The translations under genes and the position numbers were made by a program. The notes under the pieces are model-generated. The model searched no databases. It saw nothing but the letters and a program-made list of their open reading frames with translations, and was not told the origin of the DNA. From contig NZ_CP060711.1 in assembly GCF_014395425.1 (NCBI RefSeq), forward strand, positions 2,790,001 through 2,854,000: a DNA stretch of 64,000 nucleotides. The letters are read 5' to 3'. This DNA is from Thermomonas brevis. GTDB lineage: Bacteria > Pseudomonadota > Gammaproteobacteria > Xanthomonadales > Xanthomonadaceae. Positions 3,139 through 34,166 of the stretch are shown here, piece by piece. Positions within the stretch are counted from its first letter, which is position 1, and each line of letters starts with the position of its first letter.

Positions 3139-3292
3139 TCGTCATTCCCGCGAAAGCGAGCCTCTGTCGACGGACGCATGCTCATTTGCTCGTCATTCCC
3201 GCGAAAGCGGGAATCCAAGGACATTGCTCTTGCTTCCGTGTTGCCATGGAAAACAAAGTCCCTGGATTCCCGCTTTCGCGGGAATGACGAGC
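3139..3292. repeat. Three ATTCCC-N8-GGGAAT type repeats
   Basis: Intergenic DNA between tldD and yjgA holds a truncated copy (3139-3160), a full copy (3189-3220) and an inverted full copy (3261-3292) of a unit with core ATTCCCGCGAAAGCGGGAAT. The two full copies match over about 31 of 32 bases and form a long inverted repeat with a 40-bp spacer. The core itself is a palindrome. It matches the dRS3-type pattern ATTCCC-N8-GGGAAT known from Neisseria and similar repeats of other proteobacteria. It may also act as a bidirectional terminator between the convergent tldD and yjgA. Confidence 0.75.
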
Positions 3293-3337
3293 AAGAACAC
3301 GCGTCACAAGAGAAATGATTTCGCGGGAAGGACGGCT

Positions 3338-13716: not shown

Positions 13717-14334
13717 TCAGGCGGGCTGCGGCAATCCCGGCAGTTCGTCCTGCACGGGCGTCGCGCCCAGCGCGTCGCGCACCGGCGCGAAGCTGCGGCG
13801 GTGCTGCGGGCAGGGGCCGAAGCGGCGCAGCGCGTCCAGGTGCTGCGGACAGGGATAGCCCTTGTGGCGGTCGAAGCCGTAGTGTGGGTGCAGCGCGTGC
13901 AGCTCGCGCATGCGGGCATCGCGCGCCACTTTGGCGAGGATCGAGGCAGCCATGATGGCGCGGTCGCGGGCGTCGCCGCCCACCCAGGCTTCGGCCGGGC
14001 AGGGCAGGTCCTTCGGCAGCCGGTTGCCGTCGATGCGCGCGCAGTCGGCCATGTGGGCCACGCCGAGCAGCGCCTCGCGCATGCCGTGCATGGTCGCCTG
14101 GAAGATGTTGCGGCGGTCGATCTCGTCGGCTTCGACGAACACGATCTTCCACGCCAGCGCGCGCTCGACGATGCGCGGGTAGAGCAACTCGCGCTTCTTC
14201 TCGGTCAACGCCTTGGAGTCGTCCAGCCCGTTCACCGGCGTGCGGCCCGGCGCGAACACCACCGCGGCCACCACCACGGGCCCGGCCAATGGGCCGCGCC
14301 CGGCTTCGTCGATGCCGGCGATGCGCAGGTTCAT
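13717..14334 (-). CDS. rnhB: Ribonuclease HII
   Basis: Cleaves the RNA strand of RNA-DNA hybrids and removes single ribonucleotides from DNA. The 205-residue product has the signature [17 protein letters not shown] near the N-terminus with the first two active-site acids, followed by [12 protein letters not shown] and the later active-site region [26 protein letters not shown], then [13 protein letters not shown]. The start ATG overlaps the lpxB stop (ATGA), a sign of translational coupling. The lpxB-rnhB-dnaE order is classical for gammaproteobacteria. Confidence 0.96.
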
Positions 14335-15470
14335 GCGCGTTGCAGCAGTCCCGCCACCGCGTCGGCGGCGCGCTGCGAGGCATCGCGGCGCAGCATTTCG
14401 TGGATTGCGAGGAAACGCGGCTGCAGCGCGGCGACCGCATCGGCATCGCGGAACCAGTGCAGCAGCGCGGCATGCAGCCTGTCCGGCGTGCAGTCGTCCT
14501 GCAGCAGCTCGGGAATCAGCGTTTCCCCGGCCAGCACATTGGGCAGGCTGACGTGCCGCGACTTCAGCAGCCCGAACAGCTTGACGATGCGGTAGGTCAG
14601 CGGCGCGATGCGGTGGCCCACCACCATCGGCCGCTTGCACAGCATCGCCTCCAGCGCGGCGGTGCCGGAGGCCAGCAGCACCGCGTCGCTGGCGATCATG
14701 ATGCGCTGCGCCTGGCCGTCGACGACGCGGAACGCCGGCGCATCGCCGAGGATTTCATCGATGGCGGCGCGGCACTGCGCGTTCGCCGCCGGCACCAGCA
14801 CGCGCAGGCCGGGTACGTCATCTGCAAGGCGGCGTGCGGCGTCGGCGAAGTCGGGCAGCATGCGCCGGATTTCGCCCAGCCGGCTGCCGGGGAGCAGGGC
14901 GAGGATCGGCGCATCGGCCGGTTCGTCCAGCGCCACGCGGGCGGCGGCGCGGTCGGGGTGAAGCGGAATCGCATTGGCCAGCGGATGACCGATGAAAGCG
15001 GCATCGACACCGTGTTTCGCGTAGATCGGCGGCTCCATCGGGAACAGGCAGAGCACACGGTCGGCGCTCTCGCCGATCTTCGCCGCGCGGTTCTCGCGCC
15101 AGGCCCAGACCGAGGGGCTGACGTCGTGCACGGTGCGCACGCCGCGCTGCTTCAGCCAGCGTTCGACGCCGAGGTTGAAGTCGGGGGCGTCGATGCCGAT
15201 GAACACGTCGGGTTTCCAGTCCAGCACGCGCTGGCGGAAGGTCTTGCGCAGTTTCAGCAGGCGCGGCAGGTGCGCCAGCACTTCGGTCAGGCCCATCACC
15301 GCCAGCTCGCTGGCATCGAACCACGTGTCCATGCCGGCCGTGCGCATCGCATCGCCGCCGATGCCGGCGAACTGCGCATCGGGGAAGCGCGCGCGCAGGG
15401 CTTCAATCAGGCCGGCGCCGAGCTGGTCGCCCGAGGTTTCTCCGGCACAAAGCGCAATGCGAACAGTCAT
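14331..15470 (-). CDS. lpxB: Lipid-A-disaccharide synthase
   Basis: Membrane-associated GT-B glycosyltransferase that joins lipid X and UDP-diacylglucosamine to form the lipid A disaccharide. The 379-residue protein starts [21 protein letters not shown] and keeps [28 protein letters not shown] and [15 protein letters not shown], all LpxB landmarks, plus [21 protein letters not shown] in the donor site. It overlaps rnhB by 4 bp. Upstream, a 118-bp gap to lpxA holds a large perfect hairpin (15494-15574). Confidence 0.97.
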
Positions 15471-15493: not shown

Positions 15494-15574
15494 GTCGCGC
15501 CTGCGGCGGGGGCGGACTCCAACCAAGCGAGTATCGGGGAGCGACTTGGAGTCCGCCCCCGCCGCAGGCGCGAC
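15494..15574. repeat. Constant-loop hairpin element, copy 1 (lpxA-lpxB gap)
   Basis: Perfect 29-bp inverted arms (15494-15522 and 15546-15574) enclose a 23-nt loop at 15523-15545 that begins CCAAGCGAG and ends GGGGAGCGAC. The same 23-nt loop recurs exactly at 33682-33704, there flanked by different arms. The element begins 14 bp after the lpxA stop codon and lies inside the lpx operon. No T-run follows in the direction of transcription. On the lpx transcript the loop would appear as its reverse complement. Confidence 0.85.
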
Positions 15575-15588
15575 AAGGCCGATCAACT

Positions 15589-16374
15589 TCACCGCAGCAG
15601 CGGCCGCTCGCCGGCTTCGATGAAGTCGAGGAAGGCGCGCACGTCGTCGCTGTCCGCGGCGATCTCGGCCAGTTCGACCTTGGCCTCGTCCAGCTTCGCC
15701 TCGCCCATGTACAGCGCGCGGTAGGCGCGCTTGATCGCGGCGACGCGCGCCGCGTCGAAGCCGCGACGCTTCAATCCTTCGGCGTTGATGCCGCGCGGCC
15801 GCGCGTATTTTTCCTGCGCCACCATCAGGTACGGCGGCACGTCGCCGTTGACGAACGCGCCCATGCCGATGAACGCGTAATCGCCGATCCGGCAGAACTG
15901 GTGGATGCCGGAAAAGCCGCTGAGGATGACGTGGTTGCCCACCGTCACGTGCCCGGCCAGCGTCGCGTTGTTGGAGAACACGCAGTCGTTGCCGACGATG
16001 CAGTCGTGGGCGATGTGGCTGTAGGCGAGGATCCAGTTGCGGTGGCCCAGCCGGGTGATGCCGCCGCCGTCGCCGGTGCCGCGGTTGATGGTGACGAACT
16101 CGCGGATTGAATTGCCGTCGCCGATCTCCAGCTCCACGCGCTCGCCGCGATACTTCTTGTCCTGCGGCTCGCCGCCGATCGCGGCGTGGCCGTGGAAGAC
16201 GTTGTCGCGGCCGATCCGGGTCGGGCCCTCGATGGTGCAGTGCGGCCCGATTCGGGTGTTGTCGCCGATCTCCACCTCCGCGCCGATCACCGCATAGGCG
16301 CCGACCTGCACGCCCGCGCCGAGGCGCGCGCGCGGATCGATGGCGGCGGTGGGGTGGATCGCGGTCCCGGACAT
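15589..16374 (-). CDS. lpxA: UDP-N-acetylglucosamine acyltransferase
   Basis: First enzyme of lipid A synthesis: transfers a 3-hydroxyacyl chain from ACP to UDP-GlcNAc. The 261-residue protein is a left-handed beta helix of hexapeptide repeats, starting [26 protein letters not shown]. It keeps the catalytic-histidine region [11 protein letters not shown], then [12 protein letters not shown] and [17 protein letters not shown]. Start at MSGTAIHP gives normal family length and leaves a 5-bp gap after the fabZ stop. An ATG at 16404 in frame overlaps fabZ and is less likely. Confidence 0.96.
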
Positions 16375-16379
16375 CGCGC

Positions 16380-16850
16380 TCAGTCCTTCGTCGCCGCCGC
16401 GCACAGGATCTCGGCGCAGGCGACCTGCTCGCCGTCGACGCGGGCCACGCCCACGTACTGCGCCATGTTGCGGATGCGGCGCCTCAGCTCCACGTCCAGC
16501 TCCAGCCGGTCGCCGGGCACCACCATGCGGCTGAACTTGGCGTTGTCCACCTTGACCAGGTAGAAGGTCTGGCCGTCGCCCGCGCCCGGATCGCGCGAGA
16601 GCTGGGTGAGCAGGCCGCCGGCCTGCGCCAGCGCTTCCACCACCAGCACGCCCGGCATCACCGGATGGCCAGGGAAATGGCCGGTGAAGAACGGCTCGTT
16701 GTAGCTGACGTTCTTGTAGGCGAGCACGCGCTTGTCCTTCTCGAACTCGACCACGCGGTCGACCAGCAGGAATGGATAGCGGTGCGGCAGCAGGCGCTCG
16801 ATCTCGGCGCTGGTGACGGGCAGGCTCACGGGTGCGGATGCATCAGTCAT
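16380..16850 (-). CDS. fabZ: (3R)-hydroxyacyl-ACP dehydratase
   Basis: Hot-dog-fold dehydratase that removes water from 3-hydroxyacyl-ACP in fatty acid elongation. It competes with LpxA and LpxD for the same substrate, so its place between their genes is meaningful. The 156-residue protein has [14 protein letters not shown] and [23 protein letters not shown], with predicted catalytic His58 and Glu72. The start overlaps the lpxD stop as ATGA. The larger in-frame extension upstream runs antiparallel-free through lpxD and is a shadow. Confidence 0.97.
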
Positions 16851-33072: not shown

Positions 33073-33111
33073 GAACCGGCCCGTCCGGGCCAACCCTTGG
33101 AGACAGCCACA

Positions 33112-33636
33112 ATCAGTACCCCCGACAACAAGCAGAACCGCAGGAACAACGAGATTCGCGTCCCGCGCGTGCGCGTCATCGGCAGCGACGGCGAGATGAT
33201 CGGCGTCCTGTCGCGCGACGAGGCGCTGCGCATGGCCGAGGACGAGGAGCTCGACCTCGTCGAGATCCAGCCCAACGCGGATCCGCCGGTCTGCAAGATC
33301 ATGGACTTCGGCAAGTTCAAGTTCGAACTGCAGAAGAAGGCCAACGAAGCCAAGAAGAAGACCAAGCAGGTCGAGATCAAGGAAGTGAAGTTCCGTCCGG
33401 TCACGGACGAGGGCGACTACCAGATCAAGCTGCGCAAGATGCGCGAATTCCTGGTCGAGGGCGACAAGATCAAGGTCAACATCCGTTTCCGTGGCCGCGA
33501 GATGAGCCACCAGGAGCTGGGGCGCGAAATGGCGGCCCGGATCGAGGCGGATCTTGGCGAGGACATCGTCATCGAGTCCCGTCCGCGCCTGGAAGGGCGG
33601 CAGATGGTGATGATGATCGCGCCGAAGAAGAAGTGA
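33112..33636 (+). CDS. infC: Translation initiation factor IF-3 (ATC start)
   Basis: IF-3 stops 50S joining and proofreads the start codon. The 174-residue product has the N-domain ([57 protein letters not shown]) and the C-domain ([27 protein letters not shown]). No ATG lies at the right place. ATC at 33112, 9 nt after GGAG, gives the family N-terminus [11 protein letters not shown]. An upstream in-frame TTG (33097) overlaps the Shine-Dalgarno. Rare starts (AUU in E. coli) let IF-3 repress its own gene, so ATC is the best call. Confidence 0.95.
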
Positions 33637-33657: not shown

Positions 33658-33728
33658 GGCGACTGCCGGGCGTCTCGGTCACCAAGCGAGTATCGGGGAG
33701 CGACTGACCGGGACGCCCGGCAGTCGCC
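33658..33728. repeat. Constant-loop hairpin element, copy 2 (infC-rpmI gap)
   Basis: 24-bp inverted arms (33658-33681 and 33705-33728, one mismatch) enclose a 23-nt loop at 33682-33704. The loop is identical to that at 15523-15545, while the arms are unrelated in sequence. It starts 21 bp after the infC stop codon, within the 332-bp infC-rpmI gap. Here the loop is in the sense direction of the transcript; in the lpx copy it is antisense. Confidence 0.85.
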
Positions 33729-33968: not shown

Positions 33969-34166
33969 ATGCCCAAGATCAAGACCAATCGGGCGGCGGC
34001 CAAGCGCTTCCGGAAGACCGCTTCCGGCAAGTACAAGTGCGGCCACGCCAACAAGAGCCACATCCTCACCAAGAAGGCGACCAAGCGGAAGCGCAACCTG
34101 CGGCAGACGAACCACGTTCGTGCCGAGGACGCGGGCCGTCTGGACCGCATGCTTCCGTATTTGTGA
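33969..34166 (+). CDS. rpmI: 50S ribosomal protein L35
   Basis: 65-residue, very basic ribosomal protein. [41 protein letters not shown] and the ending [12 protein letters not shown] are diagnostic. AAGGA lies 7 bp before the ATG. rplT follows after 11 bp, the invariant bacterial pair. Confidence 0.98.

Follow-up and report, generated by a model that had tools for sequence, protein, structure and literature searches.

The window analyzed here, 64,000 nucleotides of Thermomonas brevis DNA, contains two long hairpins that share one loop (Table 1). Copy 1 (15494-15574) has 29-nt arms that are 100% complementary around a 23-nt loop, and copy 2 (33658-33728) has 24-nt arms that are 96% complementary, with one G.T pair, around a loop of 23 nt. 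The loop, CCAAGCGAGTATCGGGGAGCGAC, is letter-for-letter equal in the two copies, and the stems differ. A first-pass annotation had described a perfect 29-bp stem with this loop and the identical loop on a different 24-bp stem, and we confirmed its coordinates and arms. The 18-mer core of the loop occurred twice in the window; the mean in 100 shuffles was 0.06, and none of the 100 contained two. Thus, the second core in the window is not a chance event.

Table 1. Positions of the two hairpins and their neighboring genes in the window
Feature	Position	Strand	Basis
Copy 1, 5' arm of stem, 29 nt	15494..15522	+	Inverted-repeat search
Copy 1, constant 23-nt loop CCAAGCGAGTATCGGGGAGCGAC	15523..15545	+	
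Copy 1, 3' arm, 29 nt, perfect complement	15546..15574	+	
Copy 2, 5' arm of stem, 24 nt	33658..33681	+	Inverted-repeat search
Copy 2, loop, 23 nt, identical to that of copy 1	33682..33704	+	
Copy 2, 3' arm, 24 nt, one G.T pair	33705..33728	+	
Copy 1 neighbor, presumed lpxB-like gene	14331..15470	-	Protein sequence
Copy 1 neighbor, presumed lpxA-like gene	15589..16404	-	Protein sequence
Copy 2 upstream neighbor, presumed infC-like gene	33097..33636	+	Protein sequence
Copy 2 downstream neighbor, presumed rpmI-like gene	33969..34166	+	Protein sequence

We take the neighboring genes to be lpxB-like, lpxA-like, infC-like and rpmI-like, names assigned from their protein sequences. Both neighbors of copy 1 are on the minus strand, which places the loop strand of this hairpin antisense to the two genes. 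The inner arm of copy 1 had no other match in the host genome at up to three mismatches, and guide-like arms with a target elsewhere were accordingly rejected for this copy. The window also holds a long inverted repeat at 3186-3294 (41-nt arms, 95% complementary, around 27 nt), which carries the motif CGTCATTCCCGCGAAAGCGGGAATCC and belongs to a different repeat family without the CCAAGCGAGTATCGGGGAGCGAC loop, and an inverted repeat at 1591-1662 (28-nt arms, 89% complementary, around 16 nt).

A search of the host genome and its relatives for the loop, with comparison of its flanks, as the first-pass annotation had proposed, revealed a family. In the host genome (one 3.44-Mb contig), 12 places matched the loop at up to three mismatches, compared with three for a backward control pattern, and most of the 12 had near-perfect stems. 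The search therefore returned 12 host copies, most of them with paired flanks, and none of the outcomes that the annotation had named as refuting (two copies only, unpaired flanks or one stem common to all) held. When a covariance model of the hairpin, built from 72 copies, was run on the host genome, nine of the 12 had strong scores (E 6.8e-12 or less), and the other three, whose loops are altered, had weak ones (E 0.28-0.68). Among 25 Thermomonas genomes, 21 gave covariance matches (E 0.05 or less). Under stricter filters than those of the Thermomonas count, hairpins were found in 21 of 198 genomes and nine of 54 genera family-wide, and in two of 369 genomes, one of them the host, in a class-wide sample. 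The largest counts per genome were 17 (G024) and 19 (G507, where the stricter filters may have lost some copies).

At least 118 stretches with the loop were collected from Thermomonas, Luteimonas, Lysobacter, several gammaproteobacterial MAGs, Burkholderiaceae MAGs and Zeimonas arvi. Hairpins thus occur in Burkholderiales as well. A match in Streptomyces looks like chance, and one in a Sumerlaeia MAG may be a contaminant. The exact 18-mer core occurred in no viral contig, and among the matches listed for plasmids and phages there were only short pieces (E 0.6 or more), none spanning 80% of the query, which argues against a phage or plasmid origin. Among 817 overlapping hairpin entries from the fetched loci and the window, 73 lacked the core, and no second constant-loop family was seen in these 73. 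A description of the family was not found among the papers listed on REP/RAYT, in-frame palindromes, conserved loops with variable stems, template switching, and repeats in Thermomonas and Luteimonas, as far as this literature lies outside subscription. Papers whose text matched loop pieces of 12-13 letters on either strand were unrelated by title, and most concerned E. coli typing or detection.

The flanks of the loop pair with high regularity. Of 174 exact-core copies with distinct context and enough flanking sequence for the test, 165 paired at 12 or more of the 14 loop-flanking positions, compared with five of 5000 random places, and several of the nine poorly pairing copies contained a bulge, an N or a shifted register. 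The median stem was 25 bp (179 copies). In the 72-copy alignment, 98.5% of cells were paired and all 16 of 16 stem pairs had changed on both sides, with controls far lower; because these 72 rows were chosen for good pairing, 165/174 is the fair figure for pairing.

Among 195 copies of standard layout, the loop was exactly CCAAGCGAGTATCGGGGAGCGAC in 117, started with CA in 35 and had a CCG...GAA form in 11; 28 further variants occurred once or twice each. A few copies carry a GCGAAT..CGTGG loop, and in some the GAC of the loop is swapped for a small extra hairpin. At L008, L010, L024, L046 and L112 (each near 1501), a small second hairpin is joined to the stem in place of the last loop bases, and L012 resembles these variants but is less regular. 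In the MAG SG8_30, seven loci (L131, L135, L138, L139, L150, L169 and L220) possess the loop on a stem that is interrupted near it, perhaps by tandem G.A mismatches, and were scored as weak stems. A distant gammaproteobacterial copy (L311 near 1500, in G225) keeps AAGCGAG and GAGCGAC with a longer, different tip between them. Folding of the loop strand as RNA predicted a two-pair GC/GC helix inside the loop; DNA parameters predicted another pairing.

The first-pass annotation had called the stems unrelated. This held in part: stems mostly differ in Thermomonas, with a median identity of 40% over all pairs of host arms and of 35% for stems across sites. However, four host arms (L002, L003, L007 and L009) are linked at 75-80% identity, and same-stem groups exist in other genomes. 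In MAG.332, 16 of 16 copies have one stem type, and in Luteimonas salinisoli groups of 14, six and two were found among 24 copies; L. endophytica has six stem types in eight copies. Counts of stem types for G000, G024 and SG8_30 were unusable owing to prior removal of duplicates. The constant part of the element is its tip, and the stem pairs but carries no sequence of its own. A nearly constant tip on a freely changing stem is the reverse of the usual repeated DNA palindromes.

Occupied and empty sites were then compared. An SDR gene was examined in 21 genomes. The site is empty (15 nt) in 11 of them; in six the gap is 102-249 nt long and contains one hairpin or two, and in three it exceeds the empty site (36, 42 and 78 nt) but lacks the loop. 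The length of every gap measured, 20 in all, is divisible by three, and no stop occurs in the six gaps that carry hairpins, whose frames are open. Relative to the empty site, the hairpin genomes hold 87-234 extra bases, which is room for both arms and the loop. At this one old site, where empty sites could be compared, the added bases do not support the suggestion that an inverted copy of neighboring DNA is newly made as the element forms.

The lpxB-lpxA gap, measured in 24 of 25 Thermomonas genomes, contains the family in 14: one copy in 12 genomes (one copy degenerate; gaps 115-160 nt) and two copies in two (256 nt). In the ten genomes without it the gap measures 0-154 nt, and some of these gaps hold other palindromes. 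Unrelated palindromes or repeats occupy the gap in L289 2081-2146 (G006), L287 2009-2104 (G016) and L279 (G019), as if this gap attracted palindromes. At infC-rpmI, G002 has a decayed copy. Together, the three comparisons indicate that whole hairpins were added and that copies decay.

The same gaps are used across Thermomonas, among them hslV-hslU, lpxA-lpxB, infC-rpmI, and sites next to adk, a pabC-like gene and hemE; the infC site is also occupied in Lysobacter daejeonensis (L041, L171). No recent insertion was found, and since most Thermomonas copies lie at shared sites, no recent movement is seen there. Copies less than 400 bp apart were inverted relative to each other in 32 of 34 cases, duplicates having been removed approximately. 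Four of the 25 Thermomonas genomes are free of hairpins. They are scattered on a lpxA-lpxB tree, in which many forks are weak, and require four changes. That lineages so scattered lack the hairpins altogether suggests that the hairpins depend on a shared factor, although the absences may have other causes. The recurrent genes that adjoin copies are housekeeping genes at shared sites, and ten Luteimonas loci judged by eye looked ordinary; on these grounds we rejected a linked gene.

Mismatches within stems were strongly biased by strand. Read on the loop strand, 167 distinct stems contained 126 G.T, 21 A.C and 51 other mismatches. The ratio of G.T to A.C was 43:3 in copies antisense to both neighbors and 41:8 in copies sense to both (difference p 0.20), and the bias was weaker between convergent genes (17:9). 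Because antisense copies do not show a reversed bias, the mRNA of the neighbors is not what counts. Thus, the loop strand is the one that folds, as single-stranded DNA or as an RNA of its own. When 211 copies were sorted by orientation, both neighbors were antisense in 74 and sense in 62, while 36 copies lay between convergent and 21 between divergent genes, 12 lay inside predicted ORFs and six had one side unassigned; ORFs were taken from a codon-usage script, and the count includes the Streptomyces coding match (L175), probably a chance one. The hairpins therefore have no fixed orientation to genes.

We then compared copies of the same orientation at the same site. The lowest bin of divergence comprised 10 pairs, with 10% divergence at fourfold sites. 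In it, 15.5% of stem pairs had changed on both sides and 5.5% on one side, whereas independent change at equal arm divergence would give 3.3% and 29.8%, respectively; some genomes enter more than one of the compared pairs, and in GC-rich genes fourfold sites do not evolve in a fully neutral way. Arm sites in this bin diverged by 18.2% and loop sites by 2.6%. One-sided changes, counted in same-orientation pairs at one site, left 138 G.T, 35 A.C and 31 other mismatches. In L107 and L089, whose neighboring coding DNA is 98.3% alike, 24 stem pairs contain four double and three single changes. These analyses covered the loci other than L032, L015, L038, L041 and L119-L236, and pairs whose arms differed by at most 45%. 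The results favor arm-to-arm copying, as in template switching, over slow two-step compensation. The first-pass annotation had proposed that pairing is selected while the sequence drifts. Pairing is indeed kept and the arms change together, with both sides changed in 16 of 16 pairs; it may be upheld by selection, strong selection included, or by arm-to-arm copying.

Loop orientation was compared at the same sites, with L032 and loci L119-L236 set aside. Among same-site stems at least 80% alike, a likeness that occurs in 0.02% of comparisons between sites, 16 pairs carried the loop in opposite orientations and 53 carried it in the same one. The best opposite case was L042 versus L044, with stems 95% alike. 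Inversion of the loop within the stem would account for these pairs, and so might the loss of one partner from inverted pairs at one site, such as that at L099. At L032 (1-158, G023:C90), the end of a MAG contig folds back on itself at a hairpin. This artefact of assembly looks like a flipped loop; the locus was therefore left out, and the flip that G023 and G024 seemed to show at the folD site was rejected.

We consider that the hairpins probably form a REP-like, loop-tagged family of palindromic repeats that is recognized in single-stranded form by a putative factor. The folded tip on its stem, in single-stranded DNA or in the element's own RNA, would be recognized by a trans-acting factor that spread the hairpins. 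After insertion, the arms would stay matched mainly by the copying of one arm from the other, through template switching or hairpin-primed synthesis, and A.C mismatches on the loop strand would be tolerated less than G.T. We propose that arm copying and tolerance of G.T together would let the stem sequence change quickly around a tip that is kept. The REP-like reading is supported by flank pairing, covariation, loop-strand bias, mixed orientation, concerted arms, inverted pairs, same-stem groups, the whole insertion in the SDR gene and the four scattered absences. Against it stand a factor or mobilizer that was not found, the absence of REP foot tags, unlinked Y1 genes, low copy numbers and the lack of recent movement in Thermomonas. 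A variant that we regard as improbable is that a putative nuclease acts on the constant tip of the extruded hairpin and that hairpin-primed copying rebuilds one arm and can flip the tip, by analogy with the ends of parvoviruses (compare PMC8794818). If so, the stem would be a self-renewing palindrome without a sequence of its own.

Several other readings share part of this evidence. Each copy could be a structured RNA transcribed from its own loop strand, with the tip as a protein- or ligand-binding module and the stems covarying under ordinary selection on RNA structure. G.T (as G.U) is tolerated on one strand only, the stems covary in the 72-copy alignment, and in some copies the last loop bases are swapped for a small second hairpin, a modularity in the style of RNA. 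However, the copies have no fixed orientation to genes, so that each would need its own promoter, and double changes have come about more quickly than expected from two-step compensation. Further, Rfam at gathering score returned only three tRNAs in the whole window, and the 36 matches in the copy 1 region (E up to 5), mainly to long-stem microRNA models, all fell below that score. We therefore judge an RNA family unlikely. Less is to be said for a purely mutational product, in which template switching at old palindromes has left the perfect arms, and perhaps the loop flips, as its traces, and the element today has neither a function nor a factor. According to PMC8794818, template switching in RNA genes can create hairpins, maintain them and invert their loops; the concerted change of arms at about the fourfold-site rate and the 16 pairs of like stems (80% identity or more) with opposite loops fit such a process. 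It leaves unexplained why a 23-nt loop is nearly constant across genera (2.6% divergence versus 18.2% in the arms) and why G.T exceeds A.C on the loop strand, an excess that arm-to-arm copying alone does not explain. We give this reading little credence.

The differences in stems between sites, in the host genome and in the cross-site median, could also mean that stems are made at birth: a short loop sequence would insert, and an inverted copy of the adjacent DNA would then be formed around it. This is very doubtful: the DNA added to the 15-nt empty site of the SDR gene leaves room for both arms, same-stem groups exist and the inner arm of copy 1 occurs nowhere else in the host genome. That the hairpins are bidirectional transcription terminators or mRNA 3'-end hairpins is hardly tenable. 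Most are intergenic, and convergent gaps outnumber divergent ones (36 versus 21 of 211 copies), but the 8 nt that follow the stem contain at least four T in only three of 179 copies, and the 8 nt that precede it contain at least four A, the equivalent on the other strand, in ten of 179. Further, the mismatch bias ignores gene direction and some copies lie inside reading frames.

The family has a wider interest. It is defined by its loop and leaves the stem free, whereas the REP families compared here are defined by a foot tag or a stem sequence. It is a natural experiment on the upkeep of palindromes, by selection or by arm-to-arm copying, since each site can be followed through a genus alongside neutral coding positions. 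It also points to a putative factor of Gammaproteobacteria and Burkholderiales that would recognize the structured tip of 23 nt.

PMC3733652 describes REPs as small, mainly intergenic palindromes that form inverted dimers and alternating arrays and include some intragenic units. The stems of GTAG/CGTC-tagged families are 5-13 bp with loops of 2-20 nt, and they vary with pairing kept and frequent G-T pairs (PMC3733652). REP copy number is reported to be often over 100 per genome. The present hairpins are likewise mainly intergenic, small palindromes with inverted neighbors, some intragenic copies, varying paired stems and G.T pairs, and the inverted dimers (HH/TT) of REPs are matched by the 32 of 34 inverted close neighbors. 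They differ in having a 23-nt loop, instead of a foot tetranucleotide, as the constant part, in the size of the median stem (25 bp) and of the standard loop (23 nt), both beyond the REP ranges, and in a copy number of at most 19 per genome. In 12-nt foot windows of 179 copies, GTAG occurred four times at the 5' foot (chance 5.6), and CGTC occurred 12 times at the 5' foot (chance 6.9) and five times at the 3' foot (chance 11.3); neither tag was convincingly enriched. GGAG was enriched at the 5' foot (38 versus 14.4 by chance, 179 copies), which may reflect shared ancestry.

RAYT transposases (Y1, PF01797) are the mobilizers of REPs. Two genomes that are 100% complete, G008 and G018, have seven and two hairpin matches, respectively, and no PF01797 match, and Y1 is present in the hairpin-free G003, G006 and G019. 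In 30 fetched Y1 loci the 15-mer core was absent at up to two mismatches, with four matches at three, and 26 Y1 proteins gave no match to any of the 118 named hairpin loci. A RAYT as mobilizer is thus disfavored, Y1 being unlinked to the hairpins.

Rickettsia palindromic elements are palindromes inserted in frame inside protein genes, as are the hairpins in the SDR gene of six genomes. By description they are set apart from the present family, in which copies in reading frames are a small minority and the loop is the constant part. Integron attC sites are folded single-strand hairpins that are recognized largely by structure and vary in sequence. The present hairpins would resemble them as folded single strands of variable sequence; unlike attC sites, they were accompanied by no cassette array or integrase that we noticed in the loci inspected. 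Finally, the template-switch hairpins of RNA genes, as described in PMC8794818, share with the present family perfect stems, concerted compensatory changes and loop inversions, but that work concerns a mutation process, whereas the hairpins described here are a dispersed family with one loop.
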